Virus record (IMG/VR): IMGVR_UViG_3300042359_000853
Location: 124,001 to 188,000 of that record
Length of the DNA: 64,000 bases
Strand: one strand, 5' to 3'
Source: a virus
Shown: one piece after another, positions 14,337 to 58,883 of the stretch
Layout of the letters: each line of letters opens with the position of its first letter
Position numbering within the stretch: position 1 is the stretch's first letter
The notes under the pieces: model-generated
The model's database searches: none
What the model was told of the DNA's origin: nothing
The model's input: the letters and a program-made list of their open reading frames with translations, nothing else
Program-made: the position numbers and the translations under genes

Positions 14337-15203
14337 TTAGGTTAAGTTTGTGTAGTTCATCACCAAAACTTCGGTTGCTCGTGATTGTTTTTGTCCACTT
14401 TTAGCCATCGCTGCTTTTGCGAACTCTTGCTGAGTCCATCGGTAACTATCCTTAGGAAACCACTCTTCGAGCTCATTAAAGGGATAATAAGATAGTGAAA
14501 ATTTTCCCGAGATTGATTTTAGACAATTTGCTAGACGAAGATGGTCTCGAGAAGTAAAATCGTGATTGGAATAGTAGGATCCCTCACCGACTTTCCAATA
14601 GGGTGGATCGCAATAGAAATAAGTATCAGGTGAATCTAAGAGAGTAATGATCTGTTCAAAATCAAGCCGATAAACATCGGTTATTAGAGAAAACTTTTCG
14701 CACCATTTATCATTCTCTAGTTTATTGATAAAAGATTGAAACTTCGAGTGGTATTTACCCTTCAGATCAATATATCCTGAAGTCTTGGGATTTGCTCCTG
14801 AGAAGATATTAGAAAGAATCAGCGCGTGTTTGGCAGCTCTTTCGAGATTTGGGACTTCTTCTATTTTGGATTCATCACCATAGAGCTCTCGTTGAGATTG
14901 TAAAAAAAAGTTTTTAGTATCTAAAGATGAACCTACACCCTTTTTTTGATAGGGAAAACTTTTACATATTTCTAAAACACCTTTAGGATCTTGACGAAGA
15001 CTTAGAAAAAGATTGTAGTTCAAGGGGTTCAAATCGTTATAGACAATCCTTTCAAGGTGTGGGTAGTTATCCAAGTTCATTCCGAAATAAGTCCAGAACA
15101 TACCCGAGAAAGTTTCTACATAAGTTTTGATATTTTTTGGTATTTCGGGTATAATCAACTTTTTAGCTATTTGACTTTTACCACCGATATAGGGAAGGCA
15201 CAT
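14337..15203 (-). CDS. DNA adenine methyltransferase, Dam/D12 class
   Basis: A 288-residue N6-adenine methyltransferase. The N-terminal PYIGGKSQIAKKL is the SAM-binding FxGxK-type motif, followed by VETFSGMF. The catalytic DPPY is in FYCDPPYWK near residue 197. The length fits the Dam/M.MboIIA class. It probably marks phage DNA against host restriction; the target site cannot be read from sequence. It starts one base from the stop of the DUF151 gene (ATG/stop overlap), so the two are coupled. A second, divergent copy is at 47710-48651. Confidence 0.85.
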   Translation of the reverse strand: MCLPYIGGKSQIAKKLIIPEIPKNIKTYVETFSGMFWTYFGMNLDNYPHLERIVYNDLNPLNYNLFLSLRQDPKGVLEICKSFPYQKKGVGSSLDTKNFFLQSQRELYGDESKIEEVPNLERAAKHALILSNIFSGANPKTSGYIDLKGKYHSKFQSFINKLENDKWCEKFSLITDVYRLDFEQIITLLDSPDTYFYCDPPYWKVGEGSYYSNHDFTSRDHLRLANCLKSISGKFSLSYYPFNELEEWFPKDSYRWTQQEFAKAAMAKSGQKQSRATEVLVMNYTNLT

Positions 15204-15793
15204 TAATCTAGTTCTCCTTTCATTGCTTTTATTTTATCTCGGATCTGAGATGCGATCTCGTAGTCTTCTTCTTCGAGTGCTTTATCGAGCATTTTCTGAA
15301 GATTTTCTAAAGTTACTTTAGGAGAAGAGCCTTGTTTTTTTGGCTGTTGAGGTTCGGATGCCTCTTCATCTAGATCAGGGATCAACCCGTAGATTTCCAT
15401 TACTTCAGATGAAACATAAATAGGAAGTTCTAGTTTTGCTGCTAGACAAAGAGCATCTCCTACACCTACATTGATCTCAATTTCTCCTTCTTGTGAGTTT
15501 GTAATAACTTTAGTATAAAAAATTCCCTCGAAAACAGAGTGTAAATAAACCGCATCCATCGTAAAGTTGTGATTAGTTGAGAGCGATTCAAAAAGATCCC
15601 AAACAAAAACTTTTTGAGTTTCTATTTTTTCAAGTTGAAGTGCGATAAACTGAGCTTCTCTATCACGAACAATCACCGGTAGTTTTCTATCACCACTCTC
15701 TTCTTCAAGAACAACGATATAGTTATCACCCATCGATTGGGTCTGTGATAGACCGATTATATTACACTCTATTTTCTTTTGGAAATTTGACAT
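15203..15793 (-). CDS. DUF151 bifunctional-nuclease-type protein with UVR motif
   Basis: A 196-residue protein. Residues 5-125 match the DUF151/BFN fold (LPVIVRDREAQFIALQLE; DAVYLHSVFEGIFYTKVI; GVGDALCLAAKLELPIYVS). Residues about 160-193 form a UVR motif (LDKALEEEDYEIASQIRDKI). This exact two-domain architecture is common in Bacteroidota chromosomes. The cellular role is poorly known; plant and archaeal relatives have nuclease activity. In a phage it looks acquired from the host. It is directly upstream of the Dam-type gene. Confidence 0.8.
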   Translation of the reverse strand: MSNFQKKIECNIIGLSQTQSMGDNYIVVLEEESGDRKLPVIVRDREAQFIALQLEKIETQKVFVWDLFESLSTNHNFTMDAVYLHSVFEGIFYTKVITNSQEGEIEINVGVGDALCLAAKLELPIYVSSEVMEIYGLIPDLDEEASEPQQPKKQGSSPKVTLENLQKMLDKALEEEDYEIASQIRDKIKAMKGELD

Positions 15794-27404: not shown

Positions 27405-29216
27405 ATGATAACCTCTTCAGATAAACAGATATTCTCGAGTATCTGGAAATTTTCAAAGCCTTTTAAACGTGATCTTAGCTCGGTCTTTCTTCTTATTGTT
27501 TTAGTTTCGGTCTTGGATGCGGTAAATCACTACTGCTTGAGTAAGGTATTTGACACAGCTGGCGTAAAATCAGGTCTAGAAAATTCGGTCTGGTGGCTCT
27601 TTTTAGCTGGATTTGCTATGATATCAAAGATATTTTTCTCAAAATGGCGAGAAAAGATTGAGATCCAAAAACTAGATGTGAATGTTTCTAACTTTCTAAA
27701 TAGCTATTCTATATCGAAGTTTTTTACTTTTTCTAACGGCCAACACCTAAACGAGCACTCGGGTATCAAGCAGAATATTATACAAACTGGTTTTGGATCC
27801 TTGAGAAATCAGATGAATGTGTTTATCTACAACCTTGTTCCTACCCTATCGCAGTTTGTAGTTGCTATTTTTATATTTTATTGGATAAATATTTGGATGG
27901 GTATTGGATATACCCTATTTTCTCTATTTTTTGGCTTTATTCTTTTTAGATTTCATAAGTTTTTAACGCCACAGGTTGAGAAGGTAAGAGAAGTTGAAGT
28001 ATCAAACTCAAGGCTAATCTCTGAACTTTATCGGTATGTTGTTCTTATTAAAAATGAAGTAGCCGAAGATAAATCTCTCGGGGATCTCGATACAGCTCAA
28101 ACAAAATACAAAAGCTCTTATAGTCAAACCTGGCTCTCGGCTATTGATAGACTTCTGATTATTCGGCTTTCATCACAGGTGTTCAGATTTTTAAGTATTC
28201 TTTTTTGTGTATATCTTATTTATCAAGACCAAATCACGATGGGATCTATATTTTTAGTTTATCTGTGGTCTGGAAACTACATCAATGCTATTTGGTCTAT
28301 TACCGATCTACAAAAGGGTTATATTACTGATAAAATAAATATACAAAAGTATTTTGATCTGATTGGCACTGAAAGTGATGTGGTTCAAGATAAAAATCCT
28401 ATAACTGAAGGTCTTGTTGGTGATATTGAGTTCAAGAGTGTTCATTTTGCCTATCCTAAAAGAGTTGATAAATATGAAGGTGAAAAGATTTCACCGGATG
28501 AAAAAAACAGTTTTGTTTTAGATGGTATTTCTTTTGTGATACCTAAGGGAAAAAAAGTTGCTTTTGTAGGTGAGTCTGGCTCTGGTAAATCAACAATCGC
28601 AAATCTTATTCGTAGATCTTTCGATCCACAGATGGGAGAGATTTGTGTGAATGGTAACCCCTTGAAAAAGATTGACATCAAAAAGTTTCTCAAAAAGATT
28701 GGTTCAGTTGATCAGGATATTATTCTTTTTGATAGATCACTTCGTGATAATATTTCTTTTGGAACCGGTAAGCGTCTCACTGATGAGGAGCTCTCTAAAG
28801 TTGCTAAGCTATCGGGTATTGATAACTTTTTCACGAAGCTAGAGTTTGGTTGGGATACGATTATCGGTGAGAGAGGAGCTAAACTCTCTGGTGGGGAGCG
28901 TCAAAGAATAGGCATCGCAAGAGCACTTGCTAAAGAACCAGAGATCCTGATTTTTGATGAAGCGACCTCAGCACTTGACTCAAAAAATGAAAAACAAGTA
29001 TCTAAGGCTATTGAAAAATCCTCTTTTGGAAAAACCTCGATTATTATTACACACCGACTTTCAACTGCTCTTGCTTGTGATAAAATATTTGTAATGAGAC
29101 TTGGTAGAATTTTAGACTCTGGTTCTCACGCTGAACTTTTAGAACGGTGTGAATACTACCGAGAACTTGTTAAAAATCAACTCAATCCAAAAAGCGAAAC
29201 AAAAACTGAAGTCTAA
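27405..29216 (+). CDS. ABC exporter (membrane + ATPase half-transporter, MsbA/MDR type)
   Basis: A 603-residue complete type IV ABC half-transporter. Residues about 20-330 hold six hydrophobic segments (for example SVFLLIVLVSVLDAV, VVAIFIFYWINIWMGIGYTL, FLSILFCVYLIYQ). The ATPase follows: Walker A GESGSGKST near 389, Q-loop VDQDIILFDRSLRDNISFG near 435, signature LSGGERQR near 490, Walker B ILIFDEATSALD near 512 and H-loop IITHRLS near 545. All catalytic motifs are intact. It would homodimerise in the inner membrane and export a lipid, peptide or drug. It has a strong Bacteroidota-type promoter of its own. Full ABC exporters are rare in phages. Confidence 0.92.
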   Translation: MITSSDKQIFSSIWKFSKPFKRDLSSVFLLIVLVSVLDAVNHYCLSKVFDTAGVKSGLENSVWWLFLAGFAMISKIFFSKWREKIEIQKLDVNVSNFLNSYSISKFFTFSNGQHLNEHSGIKQNIIQTGFGSLRNQMNVFIYNLVPTLSQFVVAIFIFYWINIWMGIGYTLFSLFFGFILFRFHKFLTPQVEKVREVEVSNSRLISELYRYVVLIKNEVAEDKSLGDLDTAQTKYKSSYSQTWLSAIDRLLIIRLSSQVFRFLSILFCVYLIYQDQITMGSIFLVYLWSGNYINAIWSITDLQKGYITDKINIQKYFDLIGTESDVVQDKNPITEGLVGDIEFKSVHFAYPKRVDKYEGEKISPDEKNSFVLDGISFVIPKGKKVAFVGESGSGKSTIANLIRRSFDPQMGEICVNGNPLKKIDIKKFLKKIGSVDQDIILFDRSLRDNISFGTGKRLTDEELSKVAKLSGIDNFFTKLEFGWDTIIGERGAKLSGGERQRIGIARALAKEPEILIFDEATSALDSKNEKQVSKAIEKSSFGKTSIIITHRLSTALACDKIFVMRLGRILDSGSHAELLERCEYYRELVKNQLNPKSETKTEV

Positions 29217-48717: not shown

Positions 48718-48750
48718 CATAAAAAAACCCAACTCTTCTGGAGTTGGGTT
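48718..48750 (-). terminator. Rho-independent terminator of the tmRNA gene
   Basis: Minus strand AACCCAACTC and GAGTTGGGTT form a perfect 10-bp stem around CAGAA, followed by a run of T. It begins 3 nt after the tmRNA CCA end. Confidence 0.9.
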
Positions 48751-48753
48751 ACT

Positions 48754-49103
48754 TGGTGGAGGTGCTGGGATTCGAACCCAGGTTTCTACATTTACCTAAA
48801 TAATCAATCATTCACAAGCTTAGAACTCTTTTCTAAGAGAACCAACTATCGGATTTTATCGAAGAACCTTCCGAAAAAACTTTTGAGGCTATTTATAGAG
48901 TTACCTCATTCTCGGAAACGTCTAGGCTACGGCCAATCTGTTTGCCTTTAGGATGTTGTTGCGTAGGGCGAATACTAAGTCTTCAACGCTTCCTACTTCA
49001 TTCGTGTTGCCACTTAAAGTTTTCATACAACTTATGAATCGGTGAGTATGATCCGATGCTTGCTTGATTACCCGAATAAATGAGTCAAAAGCCATTCACC
49101 CCC
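48754..49103 (-). ncRNA. ssrA: Transfer-messenger RNA (tmRNA)
   Basis: A 350-nt one-piece tmRNA with an encoded CCA end. The acceptor stem GGGGGTG pairs with CACCTCC and includes the G3-U70 wobble needed for alanine charging. The T-arm CTGGG-TTCGAAT-CCCAG and a TGGCTTTTGAC segment (tmRNA D-loop region) are present. P2 is supported by CATTTA/TAAATG, TAATCA/TGATTA and GCAAGC/GCTTGT pairing. The most likely tag frame ends in a TAG at 48924-48922 and reads ALRNNILKANRLAVA from a GCC at 48969, preceded by TATTC (compare E. coli TAGTC). The frame stays open further upstream. It would rescue stalled ribosomes. Confidence 0.92.
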
Positions 49104-49111
49104 GAGTGTTG

Positions 49112-49120
49112 ATATATATA
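49112..49120 (-). promoter_or_regulatory. TATATATAT promoter box of the tmRNA
   Basis: The box ends 8 nt before the mature tmRNA 5' end (49103). Since no protein start is involved, it supports the box being a promoter element. Confidence 0.65.
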
Positions 49121-49138: not shown

Positions 49139-49435
49139 TTAATCAAAATTGAAAAAAACTTGAATGAATGGTTCACCAACTCCATCCTCAAGACACATTT
49201 CTAAAACCCCATCGTATTTAGGAAAAAATCTCATCTCAATTTCATCTAGAAAATCTGTGATTTCAATAAGACGACTTATATCCTTTAATCCTGGATCATC
49301 CAAGAAGCACTGCATATAGAAACCCTCGTCTTCCCACCATACTGAATAGTTGCATATAGCGAACTCTTCAAGATAGGCTTCGAGCTCTGATAAGATCGCT
49401 TCTCTTTCAACTTCTTCCTTTTCACTCAAGGCCAT
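49139..49435 (-). CDS. Small acidic hypothetical protein
   Basis: A 98-residue acidic protein of unknown function, helical at the N-terminus and then beta-rich (YSVWWEDEGFYMQCFLDD). It lies 5 bp downstream of the zinc peptidase gene, in one transcript, just before the tmRNA promoter. Confidence 0.5.
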   Translation of the reverse strand: MALSEKEEVEREAILSELEAYLEEFAICNYSVWWEDEGFYMQCFLDDPGLKDISRLIEITDFLDEIEMRFFPKYDGVLEMCLEDGVGEPFIQVFFNFD

Positions 49436-49440
49436 ATTGT

Positions 49441-51099
49441 TTAGTCAAATTTGAATTTTATAGTGCCGGTCTCAAATACAATAGTAGGTTTGAAACCCGT
49501 ATCGTCAAAAAGTTTTTTGTAGGTTTCAAGCTCTCTTTTCACCGTTAGGATAGGAGTTTCATCTACTGGAAGCAATAGATAGAAGTTTTCATCATCGGTA
49601 TAAACCTTTTTTGAGTTGAATAACCTTTGTCTTTTCATCTTCATAATCAGTGAGCCATATTTAGCTGAGATAGATGGATCTAGACCTACTTTTCTAGCTA
49701 TACGAAGATTATTCCAATTTACACCGAGAGTTGCTCTTGCTAATCTTTCGAGAAAAGAAATGTTTTGCATTTCAGTATGTGTATGCTCTGAGAAATATCC
49801 AACAGAGATGTTTGTACATTCTGGTATAAGATCCATAAATGATGCTGAATCGGTGAACACACCGGTGTTATCTAACCTCATCTGCATACCATTCGCGTTA
49901 AGTTCATCACATAGACTTTGAGCAAAGACGTTTGAGCAACAAGTTTGAGAAAGTTGAGAAGTGATTACTGAGAAATAGTTTCTTCTATCAAAAGAAATAC
50001 ATTTTTTCATACCTCTAAGATGTTGTATAGTATCAAAGTTTTCAGCTACTTTACTAGATCCAATAGCCCCGCGCTCTTCACCAATAAAGAAGTAATACAC
50101 ACCAGGTATTCTGTTAGCAATCATATAAAGAAGTATAGTAACACCAGCCTTATCATCAGCTCCAAGTATAGATGTTCCATCAGTTACAAAAATTTCATCT
50201 CCGTTCTCGGTATAGGAAAGAACTCTAACTGCACTTTTAGTTCTTGATGCTGTGTCAGTGTGACAAGTAAACATGGTATCAGAATTTCCGATGACTAAGT
50301 AGTAGTTTCCCCACTGGTCCTTTTGTAGACCAGGAACAGGTAGATATTCCATGACTTCTTCTTCGTGTCCATGTGGATAAGTCTCAGTTGTAAGAGATAA
50401 GAAAGTAGATCGAACGTCTTTTGGATCATATTGAAATGGACGAACCGTTACTGGATCCCCTTTAGCTACTGAATAATATTTACTACCATAACTAGATCCG
50501 TAACCATAAGATGTTCCGGTTCCCCAACTTTTGTTGCCACTTTTAGATGACCACGAACCCGAACCACCATACAATTCAACATCTGAACCATCGTAATAAT
50601 CATAATCATCATCACGAGCACCTTTAGAAGTAGAAGTTGATCCAGAAGTTTTGCTCAAACTAGGAATAAGAGGTTTTTTCTGAACCCAACGATTATAATA
50701 GATCAAAAAGTTCTGAACAAGGGAGTCTAATTGTTTTTTGGTGTATTTAGAAGAAAAATCCGGATTTTTACCCATGAAATATTTTAGAAGAGCACTCACA
50801 CCAATCACACCGGTCTTTTCTCCAAGTACGACATCAAAATAATCAGGTGAAGTAGAGCAGTCTAAAGTTTTCAGATTTATCTTGTTTTCATACTTATCAT
50901 TTTGGTGTAGATCGAAGAAAAACTCACAAACAACAATTGTTTCATCCAACGACTTTGATGTTTTATCATTAACTTTGGCTTTATCATAGGATAAATCTGA
51001 TAGATCGCCGAGCATCACCCAAAATCCATCTGTGAAATTAATTAGTGGCCCGGATTCTCCACCTTCTAACATTTCTATTTTTTCTTTTTCTTTTTGCAT
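49441..51099 (-). CDS. MH-clan zinc peptidase (M20/M28/M42-like) with N-terminal extension
   Basis: A 552-residue protein. Residues about 235-470 are a co-catalytic zinc peptidase: FTCHTDTA (His ligand), LGADDKAG (bridging Asp), GEERGAIGS (catalytic Glu), ISFDRRN (Asp) and SEHTHTE (His). The domain is closely related to the gene at 57792. Residues 1-160 are an unrelated domain, joined by a Gly/Ser/Tyr-rich linker (about 165-215). It is probably an aminopeptidase or dipeptidase; the substrate is unknown. It is in a minus-strand run with the 51108 gene. Confidence 0.8.
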   Translation of the reverse strand: MQKEKEKIEMLEGGESGPLINFTDGFWVMLGDLSDLSYDKAKVNDKTSKSLDETIVVCEFFFDLHQNDKYENKINLKTLDCSTSPDYFDVVLGEKTGVIGVSALLKYFMGKNPDFSSKYTKKQLDSLVQNFLIYYNRWVQKKPLIPSLSKTSGSTSTSKGARDDDYDYYDGSDVELYGGSGSWSSKSGNKSWGTGTSYGYGSSYGSKYYSVAKGDPVTVRPFQYDPKDVRSTFLSLTTETYPHGHEEEVMEYLPVPGLQKDQWGNYYLVIGNSDTMFTCHTDTASRTKSAVRVLSYTENGDEIFVTDGTSILGADDKAGVTILLYMIANRIPGVYYFFIGEERGAIGSSKVAENFDTIQHLRGMKKCISFDRRNYFSVITSQLSQTCCSNVFAQSLCDELNANGMQMRLDNTGVFTDSASFMDLIPECTNISVGYFSEHTHTEMQNISFLERLARATLGVNWNNLRIARKVGLDPSISAKYGSLIMKMKRQRLFNSKKVYTDDENFYLLLPVDETPILTVKRELETYKKLFDDTGFKPTIVFETGTIKFKFD

Positions 51100-53444: not shown

Positions 53445-54014
53445 ATGAAATATAAAGTAAGTGAATATGCTAAATTGAAAAACGTTACCTACCGAACCGT
53501 TTGGAACTGGATAAAATCAAATAAGATAGACTATCAAACTACAAACACCGGTGGTCTGGTTATAGTTGAAGAAGATCCCAATTCAAATAAAGAGGTAGCA
53601 GTTTATGCTCGTGTTTCTTCATCAGAGAATAAAGATAATCTAGAAAGACAGAAAAATAGATTATTGGACTATTGTGCTTCTAGAGGATATAAAGTTTCTA
53701 GTATAGTAACAGAGATTGGATCTGGATTGAACGATAAAAGACCAAAATTAGAAAAAATTCTAACAAATAGATCTATAAGTATAATTGTAGTTGAACATCG
53801 GGATAGATTATCAAGATTTGGATTTAATTATATAGAAAAACTATTAAATTCAAATGATAGAAGGATAGAGGTAATAAATGAGCCTCTTAATGAAAAAGAA
53901 GATTTAATACAAGACTTTGTATCTATAATTACTAGTTTTACCGCTAGATTGTATGGACAAAGAAGAAGTAAAAGAAGAACCGAATTTCTTATAAAAAATC
54001 TACAAAGTGAATGA
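53445..54014 (+). CDS. tnpA: IS607-type serine recombinase (TnpA)
   Basis: A 189-residue transposase. Residues 1-45 form a MerR-like helix-turn-helix (VSEYAKLKNVTYRTVWNWIK). The catalytic domain has VAVYARVSSSENKDNLERQ with catalytic S58, then IIVVEHRDRLSRFG with the resolvase arginines, and a final long helix (SIITSFTARLYGQRRSKRR). The order HTH-catalytic is diagnostic of IS607. It appears intact. Confidence 0.92.
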   Translation: MKYKVSEYAKLKNVTYRTVWNWIKSNKIDYQTTNTGGLVIVEEDPNSNKEVAVYARVSSSENKDNLERQKNRLLDYCASRGYKVSSIVTEIGSGLNDKRPKLEKILTNRSISIIVVEHRDRLSRFGFNYIEKLLNSNDRRIEVINEPLNEKEDLIQDFVSIITSFTARLYGQRRSKRRTEFLIKNLQSE

Positions 54015-55180
54015 TCCTAGTTGAAAAGCACATAATTAGATCAGGTAAATATTTCAATCAACTAATGGAAGTTACTAGATTGAGTAAAAATCTTTATAAT
54101 TCTGGTTTGTATGCTGTGAGGCAGCACTATTTTGAATACAAGAAGTTCTTAAATTATGTAAATCTTAATAATATGTTTGTTGAACAGAAACAACAAGATT
54201 ATTACAAACTACCAGCAAAGGTTAGCCAACAAACACTGAAAATGGTGGAACAAAATTTCAAATCATTTTTTGGATTACTAAAATCTGAAAAAACTAAAAA
54301 GGTAAAAATACCTAAATATCTGGATAAAAATTCCAGTTTTTTAACAATTTGGACAAATCAAGCAGTTTCTCTCAAAAAGAAGGGTTACTTAAAGCTATCA
54401 GGAACTGATGTCTATATCAAAACAGATATTGATCATATCAATCAAGTTAGAGTTGTTCCTAGAAATAATGAGTTAGTAGTAGAGATATTATATGAAGTCC
54501 GGGAAAATGATTTAAAGAAAGATAACGGAAAATATTCATCTATAGATCTTGGCATCAATAATCTCATGACTTTATCGGGAAACACAACAAAACCTATTAT
54601 AGTCAATGGGAAACCACTAAAATCTATTAATCAGTATTACAACAAGAAAAAATCCGAAATTCAGGGTAAATTAGAAACAATCAACAAAACAAAAAAGAGC
54701 AAAAAATTAAATAAACTAACAAACAAAAGAAACAACAAAATAAATGATTATCTACACAAATCAAGTAAAATAATTATCAATCATTTAGTTTCCAAAGATA
54801 TATGTACTTTAATAGTTGGATACAATCAATACTGGAAACAAGAGATAAATATTGGAAAAAAGAATAATCAGAATTTTGTTTCAATTCCCTATCTAAAATT
54901 ATTAAATATGTTAGAATACAAATGTAAAAAAGAAGGCATTAACTTTGTCAAAAACGAGGAGAGTTATACATCCAAGTGCTCGTTTATAGATGGTGAGGAA
55001 ATTAAAAAACATACAAAATATTTAGGTAAAAGAATAAAAAGAGGATTATTCGAGAGCGCGTCTGGTAAATTGATAAATGCGGATTTGAATGGATCTCTAA
55101 ATATTCTCAAAAAAGTAGTTGGGGAATTTCAGTACCCAATAGAGGTGTGTAGCACGCCAAAAGTTATTAATTTAGCTTAG
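54011..55180 (+). CDS. tnpB: TnpB RNA-guided nuclease (no canonical zinc finger)
   Basis: A 389-residue TnpB. RuvC-I is in YSSIDLGINNLMTL (Asp), the central region has LIVGYNQYWKQEINIG, and RuvC-III is KLINADLNGSLNI (Asp). The usual CxxC...CxxC zinc ribbon between them is replaced by ESYTSKCSFIDGEEIKKHTK and LGKRIKRGLFESASG, as in a known TnpB subgroup. The N-terminal helical/WED region looks complete, so it is likely active. The guide RNA would overlap the gene 3' end and right end (about 55050-55215). Confidence 0.9.
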   Translation: MILVEKHIIRSGKYFNQLMEVTRLSKNLYNSGLYAVRQHYFEYKKFLNYVNLNNMFVEQKQQDYYKLPAKVSQQTLKMVEQNFKSFFGLLKSEKTKKVKIPKYLDKNSSFLTIWTNQAVSLKKKGYLKLSGTDVYIKTDIDHINQVRVVPRNNELVVEILYEVRENDLKKDNGKYSSIDLGINNLMTLSGNTTKPIIVNGKPLKSINQYYNKKKSEIQGKLETINKTKKSKKLNKLTNKRNNKINDYLHKSSKIIINHLVSKDICTLIVGYNQYWKQEINIGKKNNQNFVSIPYLKLLNMLEYKCKKEGINFVKNEESYTSKCSFIDGEEIKKHTKYLGKRIKRGLFESASGKLINADLNGSLNILKKVVGEFQYPIEVCSTPKVINLA

Positions 55181-57791: not shown

Positions 57792-58883
57792 ATGAAAATT
57801 ATAGACACTTTTTTAGAGCTGACCTCTCAAACTTATCCACACGGTCACGAACGGGAACTTGAACGATTTTTACCGAAAGGTATTTGTATCGATGAGTTTG
57901 GAAACTATTTTATGTATGTTGGAGATAAAACAACTACGACAATGTTTACTTGTCACTTAGATACCGCATCGTATGAAAAATCAAGAGTAACACATGTTAT
58001 TCGTGATGATAAAATTTTTACCGATGGTCGAACCATTCTCGGAGCTGACGATAAATCTGGTATGACTATCCTTCTTTGGATGATTCATAAAGGTGTTCAA
58101 GGTCTTTATTATTTTTTTCTAGGTGAAGAAAGAGGTTGTGTTGGTTCGGGAAAACTTAAAAGAGTATTTACCGAAATGTATCCACTGATTACGAAAATAA
58201 TTTCTTTCGATAGACGAGGCACACACTCGGTGATTACACACCAATCTTACGGAAGAACAGCCTCAGACGAGTTCGCTAGAGATCTATCAAGGCGACTAAA
58301 CGAAACCGGTTATGGTTTTAGGTATGAGCCGGATCCCACGGGTATTTACACCGATTCCAATCAGTTTGCCTCGATAGTTCCAGAATGCACAAATATTTCA
58401 GTAGGTTACCGAGACGAGCACTCAACTTATGAATCTCAAATTATTTCACACCTTGAAAATCTTTGCTACGCAGTTACTCAAATTGATTGGGAATCAGTAG
58501 TAGTAGCTAGAGACCCTAAGGTAAAAGATAGTGGTTGGGGATACGACTATGGATATTGGGGGAGGAGCCAAAGCTATACTGAACGAGATGAATGGTTCGA
58601 TGATTACTTTAGTCAATCGGATAGTTCTACCTATTCTCACGGGAAAACTTACTATGACGGAATAACGATAGACGAATTCGGTGATCCCGTTGATAGTAAT
58701 GACGAAATTTCACTTGAAGATATTAAGATGGTCCTCGATAAAATGGAAGTCGAATACCAAAAAATCCACTGGAATGGTGAAGAATGTTATGTTGAAATTG
58801 ATGGTTCTATGCAGTATTTTGCCGATAGAGAAAACTTAGTTGATTTTATCGATTATTATCAACACTTCTCTAACCAAGAATAA
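57792..58883 (+). CDS. MH-clan zinc peptidase (M20/M28/M42-like), paralogue of 49441 gene
   Basis: A 363-residue protein. Zinc-site residues are in FTCHLDTA, LGADDKSG, GEERGCVGS, IISFDRRG and DEHSTYE, matching the gene at 49441 segment by segment, including SQTYPHGHERELERFLP at the N-terminus. It lacks the long N-terminal extension of its paralogue but has an acidic Gly/Tyr/Ser-rich C-terminal region (about 255-310) and a small final domain. Its Bacteroidota-type promoter suggests early expression. Substrate unknown. Confidence 0.8.
   Translation: MKIIDTFLELTSQTYPHGHERELERFLPKGICIDEFGNYFMYVGDKTTTTMFTCHLDTASYEKSRVTHVIRDDKIFTDGRTILGADDKSGMTILLWMIHKGVQGLYYFFLGEERGCVGSGKLKRVFTEMYPLITKIISFDRRGTHSVITHQSYGRTASDEFARDLSRRLNETGYGFRYEPDPTGIYTDSNQFASIVPECTNISVGYRDEHSTYESQIISHLENLCYAVTQIDWESVVVARDPKVKDSGWGYDYGYWGRSQSYTERDEWFDDYFSQSDSSTYSHGKTYYDGITIDEFGDPVDSNDEISLEDIKMVLDKMEVEYQKIHWNGEECYVEIDGSMQYFADRENLVDFIDYYQHFSNQE

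Follow-up and report, generated by a model that had tools for sequence, protein, structure and literature searches.

tmRNA tags are usually regarded as host degrons with a conserved ALAA-like tail. Among phages the gene is scarce overall, being present in 2.3% of 18,146 phage genomes (PMC9004378); the sequence-only reading that preceded this analysis had likewise called it rare, which stands for phages as a whole and fails for the lineage described here. Mycobacteriophages (Bxz1, Wildcat and others) and Bacillus phage G carry ssrA genes too, in other lineages (PMC4131195). The tmRNAs of Phage Melnitz and the pelagimyophages were also proposed to serve ribosome rescue and protein tagging, but they are two-piece, of the alphaproteobacterial type and associated with a glutamine riboswitch (PMC9004378), whereas the tmRNA studied here is one-piece with a Bacteroidota-type context. 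In huge phages both tmRNAs and SmpB occur (PMC7162821); our phage is of the same kind, and in the main text of that study we found neither tags nor a Clp or peptidase linkage. Moraphages, large aquatic Bacteroidota phages, almost universally encode a ClpA-type ATPase and a 'putative peptidase', some of them along with DnaK/DnaJ, and their description makes no mention of tmRNA (PMC12619734). Phage tmRNA and SmpB are therefore already known, while conserved private tags, fixed peptidase and Clp neighbours and altered T-loops appear to be new: no report of the tag families, of either linkage or of the GGCRGU loops was found in the literature searched.

The window is a stretch of 64,000 nucleotides (G000:C1:124001-188000) from a virus record of 227,583 bases, G000. 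In profile searches the record encodes a T4-type portal and tail sheath, the portal being 69.7% identical to that of LR756502 (642 kb) and 67.3% to that of LR745206 (634 kb). Complete huge-phage genomes of 634, 636, 642 and 735 kb have been put in the Mahaphage clade, and replication in Bacteroidetes was predicted for genomes above 634 kb (PMC7162821). Since its portal is so close to those of the 634- and 642-kb genomes, G000 probably represents part of a larger genome, and the absence from the record of ClpP and, by ARAGORN, of tRNA genes is accordingly weak evidence. SmpB matches in the search of genomes came mostly from Bacillota (43–50% identity), so that SmpB is no guide to the host.

The locus holds a genuine, complete one-piece phage tmRNA (Table 1). 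ARAGORN and the covariance model RF00023 return the same span on the same strand, the latter scoring 65.3 bits (gathering score 47; E=3.4e-23) over the full model, 1-374, with weak agreement (low posterior) between the tag and the 3' end. The gene had been proposed from the letters alone, and its details hold up as well: the acceptor stem GGGGGUG/CACCUCC with its G3-U pair, a T-arm with the TTCGAAT loop, which is of the canonical UUCRAAY type, and a 3' end that reads ACCA. Nearly all homologues parsed have the G3-U pair that marks an alanine acceptor, the sole exception (L360) being cut at a contig end. The pseudoknot PK1 lies upstream of the resume codon, and its stem 2 varies by compensation among homologues (UUUGGUAA/UUAUCAAA, GUUGUCU/AGGCAAC, UUGUUA/UAACAA and others); for 19 of the 20 homologues examined, no more than 1 in 40 shuffled versions attained the real score. 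Orthologues keep the gene at DNA identities of 100% (L302), 96% (L303) and 88% (L304).

Table 1. Features of the tmRNA locus and of its candidate partner genes. Positions are those of the window unless prefixed with G000, which marks positions in the whole record.
Feature	Position	Strand	Remarks
tmRNA gene (ssrA), one-piece, 350 nt, encoded CCA	48754..49103	-	ARAGORN; RF00023; orthologues
Promoter-like box TATATATAT	49112..49120	-	8 nt upstream of the first G of the tmRNA
Intrinsic terminator AACCCAACTCCAGAAGAGTTGGGTT + T run, 10-bp stem	48726..48750	-	starts 3 nt after CCA
T-arm CUGGG-UUCGAAU-CCCAG and acceptor 3' strand CACCUCC	48758..48781	-	acceptor strand pairs with 49103-49097, G3-U
Pseudoknot PK1, H-type	49023..49057	-	stem 1 AUCGG/CCGAU (nt 47-51/62-66), stem 2 UCAUAC/GUAUGA (nt 53-58/76-81)
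Tag frame GNTNEVGSVEDLVFALRNNILKANRLAVA, 29 aa	48925..49011	-	resume GGC 49011-49009 (nt 93), stop TAG 48924-48922; ARAGORN and homologous tags
98-aa acidic protein	49139..49435	-	between peptidase gene and tmRNA
552-aa protein: uncharacterised N-terminal part and di-metal aminopeptidase domain (peptidase T / M42 / M28-like)	49441..51099	-	phrog_4191 'peptidase'; PepT-like NCBIfam
Paralogue of the aminopeptidase domain, 363 aa	57792..58883	+	alignment with the domain of the 552-aa protein; weak Pfam Peptidase_M28
ClpA/ClpC-like ATPase	G000:72471-74600		LGF ClpP-docking-type loop
SmpB	G000:76894-77343		PF01668, about 166.8-166.9 bits

The gene has a promoter-like box and a terminator of its own. 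Both, the latter the only terminator found in the region, were recovered as the sequence-only reading had described them, and both have counterparts among the relatives. Of 47 homologues, 98% have TATATA within the upstream 60 nt, whereas its frequency in AT-rich random windows is 15.5%; a terminator-like site follows 39 of 46 homologues compared with 34 of 2400 random windows. In addition, 64% of the homologues carry upstream the motif TAnnTTTG, as opposed to 6.7% of AT-rich random windows; none was seen in the 60 nt upstream of the window's own tmRNA. In Bacteroidota, TAnnTTTG serves the primary sigma factor as its -7 motif (PMC7366714). Together, the two upstream motifs fit transcription by the host polymerase, and because TAnnTTTG is a host-type motif the homologues could be transcribed early. 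Expression late in infection, which had been proposed, finds no support. A separate pattern taken as typical of Bacteroidota, AAACTTTAAGTGGCRA, marks 35 loci in viral contigs in which ARAGORN found no tmRNA gene; one of these loci, L013, is the truncated part of an identical copy.

Compared with the one-piece tmRNA of Bacteroidota (RF00023), the phage molecule has the same G3-U acceptor, T-arm, P2 and PK1, the same UAA(A/G)(C/U) context before GGC, the same glycine at the start of the tag and a stop codon. The difference lies in the tag. Host-type tmRNAs, represented here by 8 sequences from viral contigs, encode the 9-residue GENNYALAA or GETNYALAA, whereas comparison with homologues supports a frame of 29 residues, with the motif NEVGxxEDLV, that starts at GGC in the window tmRNA. 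A tag unlike that of Bacteroidota had been anticipated, and this part stands; the peptide then proposed, ALRNNILKANRLAVA, turns out to be only the last 15 residues of GNTNEVGSVEDLVFALRNNILKANRLAVA. Its supposed kinship with cyanobacterial and plastid tags was dropped because the homologous tags belong to other huge phages.

Where does this tag begin? In E. coli, the resume codon lies 12 nt after PK1, and U(-5) and A(-4) set the frame (PMC2481249). The tag is read as GNTNEVGSVEDLVFALRNNILKANRLAVA because its GGC stands 11 nt after PK1 (9–11 nt in most homologues whose PK1 is clear) in a host-type Bacteroidota context: it is preceded by UAAGU, with U(-5) and A(-4), and followed by 29 codons in all and TAG, while the host-type tmRNAs in viral contigs have UAAAC, UAAAU, CAAAU, UAACU and similar contexts, then GGC. 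Translation might instead resume internally at the UAGUA context (nt 132 or 135) and yield ALRNNILKANRLAVA or one residue more. UAGUA before UUC and UAUUC before GCC likewise offer U(-5) and A(-4), and among the peptidase-linked relatives described below (group A) the third-position excess is seen only downstream of that point (79 versus 48 and 37), the upstream block around GAAGATTTAGTA being conserved as DNA without such an excess. Part of that conservation could consequently be at the RNA level, and the codon-position test falls short of proving that the first part of the tag is translated; the start at GGC rests on indel phase, host-type context and the second phage group. An internal start would lie at least 50 nt after PK1; the upstream GGC has both the host-type position and the host-type context (UAAAC or UAAAU before GGC). 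Moreover, insertions and deletions between GGC and EDLV come in multiples of three (GNVTNEVG/GNVTEVG/GKTNEVG), a column of S/T is coded by the unrelated codons AGC, TCC, ACT and ACC, and in the second group, where the codon signal is clear, the tag begins at the same GGCAAC. We thus regard the internal start as improbable.

The relatives were reached through the neighbouring gene. BLAST of the tmRNA DNA against named phages gave no match because the relatives are too divergent, and the peptidase proved the working route: a query with the 552-aa protein encoded upstream retrieved 80 viral loci (group A), in which tmRNAs were sought with nhmmer. A homologous tmRNA lies beside the peptidase gene in 74 of the 80, almost always a short way downstream and on the same strand. 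The remaining six gave none by nhmmer; at least some of these end soon after the peptidase gene, and at one (L321) about 2.5 kb of downstream sequence is without a tmRNA. The tags of this group, about 47–48 unique near-complete sequences, follow the pattern G(N/K)...(T/S)NEVGxxEDLVxAL... with variable ends. In 47 unique tags E(-1) and D(0) are invariant and L and V nearly so; the C-termini range over LAVA, ELEVA, PELV and DLATV, and a single conserved C-terminal degron is therefore not what unites them. A 508-kb record encodes GNVITNEVGSLSDILSVLAKSKTTATQVEELEIA, and the 634- and 642-kb genomes (LR745206, LR756502) have the tmRNA at the same place, with the tags GNVNEVVTREDLVAALQNNMLLVEEPATV and DNVSEVGTREDIVSALQNNMISVGDLAVA.

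A second group (B) comprises 50 records with a Clp ATPase, 26 of which have an RF00023 tmRNA above cut-off. In 24 of these 26 the tmRNA is located 2.0–4.9 kb downstream of clp on the same strand; in the other two it lies once on the opposite strand within that distance and once far from clp. Their tags form a second conserved family of 21–22 residues, GNV(I/L)(N/D)K(L/M)...GL(I/V), for example GNVINKLSAVGLIRAEEAVVA. Tags of other huge phages, with frames read by eye, are GDYKMNAEDMMSIPTSLTGKVATESFVEDLVLA (LR756501), DNVNSFEQSILNELFAPVEMAVAA (LR756504), GNNAEMRMAA (LR756500) and DDEIDFRMAA (Lak-A1).

About 30 homologues (L335, L353, L362, L377, L396 and some 25 more) have a T-loop of the GGC(A/G)GU type instead of UUCRA. 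Their 6-bp T-stem covaries fully (ACGUUG/CAACGU, ACGAUG/CAUCGU, ACCGGG/CCCGGU, AUGCCG/CGGCAU and others), and they keep the G3-U pair. GG in the D region is found in none of them and in 5 of 5 tmRNAs with a canonical T-loop, an association that common descent may explain. RF00023 gave no match, even at E 0.1, to those GGCRGU-loop tmRNAs on which it was run; at E 1e-6 it missed the tmRNAs of LR756502 and LR745206, and at E 0.1 it failed on the LR756502 copy as well as on three more members of the group. ARAGORN, for its part, detects few of the group-B tmRNAs. As many tmRNAs of the largest phages known, LR756502 and LR745206 included, go unnoticed by the two tools, phage tmRNA is commoner than surveys say.

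Candidate partners are encoded in the same record. The SmpB match is at equivalog level (NF003843, 174.6 against a cut-off of 130), and the protein ends in the C-terminal tail GKKNYDKRQSEKDMEIDRYMKSFL. The Clp ATPase has LGF at residue 554, and [VILM]GF occurs in 60 of 63 homologues; docking on ClpP is a prediction. Its scores stay below the equivalog cut-offs (791 against 1232 for ClpB, 699 against 993 for ClpA) and no N-domain match appears among the families shown, for which reason we say only that it probably works like a Clp ATPase. In G000 the clp and SmpB genes are about 100 kb from the tmRNA. G000 has all three, and so do the published LR756502 (642 kb) and records of 385, 436 and 508 kb; among 37 records of the peptidase-linked group, most of them fragments, SmpB occurs in two and a strong Clp match in three. 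Profile searches also identify DnaK, Hsp20 and thioredoxin in G000, and DnaJ-like ORFs were noticed by eye.

Beside the tmRNA itself, the aminopeptidase domain of the 552-aa protein retains invariant metal ligands and general base (H280, D282, D315, E341, E342, D371, H439). Its AF2 model matches PepT (PDB 3gb0, E=3.3e-10) and also the M42 TET fold; judged by residues and predicted fold, it is an M20/M28/M42 di-metal aminopeptidase. At the place of the 98-aa acidic protein, most homologous loci examined have a small ORF. Copies of the aminopeptidase domain number 4–6 per Mahaphage genome (LR756501, LR756502, LR756504, LR745206), and three were seen in G000 (window 49441-51099, window 57792-58883 and G000:111489-112577).

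How might these parts work together? The reading that we favour, with a probability of about 0.72, is a working phage tmRNA that serves alanine-charged, SmpB-dependent ribosome rescue with a tag of a private family, followed by Clp unfolding and peptide trimming. What is observed is the RNA with its folds, a tag frame supported by comparison, the linkages between genes, and a single record that encodes SmpB, a Clp ATPase and an aminopeptidase. Charging, tagging, degradation and the identity of the tag-reading protease are inferred. Points against the reading are the lack of ClpP in this record, the distance of clp and SmpB from the tmRNA, the few group-A records with SmpB or a strong Clp match, and the variable tag ends. 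The G3-U70 pair would let the tmRNA be charged with alanine, and its partner would be the phage's own SmpB, or host SmpB in relatives that encode none. Ribosomes stalled on broken mRNAs would be rescued during infection, and GNTNEVGSVEDLVFALRNNILKANRLAVA would be added to the unfinished chain. Most likely, a Clp-type ATPase would then unfold the tagged chain, be it an unfoldase of the host or the phage's ClpA/ClpC-like protein docked on host ClpP. The aminopeptidase encoded beside the tmRNA would trim the resulting peptides, and ribosomes and amino acids would return to phage synthesis.

How private this pathway is can be answered in different ways. A tag that is unlike the host's and common to dozens of related viruses suggests a protein clean-up route of their own, and a private degradation route of these phages is plausible. 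As the N-terminal half of the tag is most conserved while the C-terminus drifts, an internal recognition element is suggested. Extended further, trans-translation and degradation as a whole might be private and decoupled from host ClpXP, with the N-terminal motif read by a phage receptor (the Clp ATPase, the aminopeptidase or the small protein between peptidase and tmRNA) and with the elbow of the sister group (T-loop GGCRGU, 6-bp T-stem, D-loop without GG) rebuilt, perhaps to match phage SmpB or to evade host factors; this fuller version we hold as tentative and would not bet on. A plainer account, in which the tmRNA only boosts the rescue capacity of the host, the exact tag matters little and ordinary host proteases do the work, agrees with the tmRNAs, some with SmpB, of huge and other phages (PMC7162821; PMC9004378) and with tags that end in small nonpolar A or V, like many degrons. 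An unimportant tag should drift, yet NEVGxxEDLVxAL and GNV(I/L)(N/D)K(L/M)...GL(I/V) are kept and differ from the host tag, and the linkage of the tmRNA with Clp and peptidase genes persists; on balance we consider this account possible but rather unlikely.

Inhibition instead of rescue has a precedent in the tRNA-domain-only tmRNA of mycobacteriophage DS6A (PMC4131195), and the RNA might similarly be a decoy that titrates SmpB and blocks host trans-translation. Here, however, the mRNA-like part is complete, with PK1 and a conserved tag frame and stop, and the phage supplies SmpB rather than depleting it, which makes a decoy quite improbable. Even less can be said for a functionless captured host fragment or pseudogene, or for host contamination of the record. 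It is true that ssrA is a common integration site (PMC9004378). Yet the same gene order recurs in many independent contigs and in the published 634- and 642-kb genomes, the structure is intact with covarying stems, and the record contains a T4-type portal and sheath; conserved synteny and covariation practically refute this origin. With a working phage tmRNA as the preferred reading, a tag family that is long, N-terminally conserved, unlike the host's and encoded beside proteolysis genes allows one to ask whether, and for what, phages re-route ribosome rescue.

Some further observations concern other phage tmRNAs and the rest of the record. The 484-kb phage LR756508.1 has a tmRNA match of 447 nt at 92434-92880 and also a tmRNA-like match of 112 nt at 414804-414915 (L296; 58.2 bits), which looks like a tRNA domain only, as in DS6A. 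In IMGVR_UViG_3300017917_002785 (L058:4303-10426), a stretch of 6 kb contains clp, an aminopeptidase-like gene, the tmRNA and smpB, after which comes a gene resembling a TonB-dependent receptor; this cluster is perhaps a phage-host junction or a chimera. Within the window, an HTH-like protein and a TnpB/OrfB gene with a Cas12f-like TNB domain (53445-55180, plus strand) resemble an IS607-type element in a phage, the minus-strand gene at 15203-15793 encodes a phage protein that joins a bifunctional-nuclease domain (PF02577) to a UVR motif, and a phage ABC transporter, which matches phrog_2392 with E 1.6e-112, lies at 27405-29216 on the plus strand. Elsewhere in the record, an ORF at G000:37757-39085 (L039:17757-19085) resembles, by eye, adenylosuccinate synthetase (PurA/PurZ-like) and could relate to modified adenine in the phage DNA.
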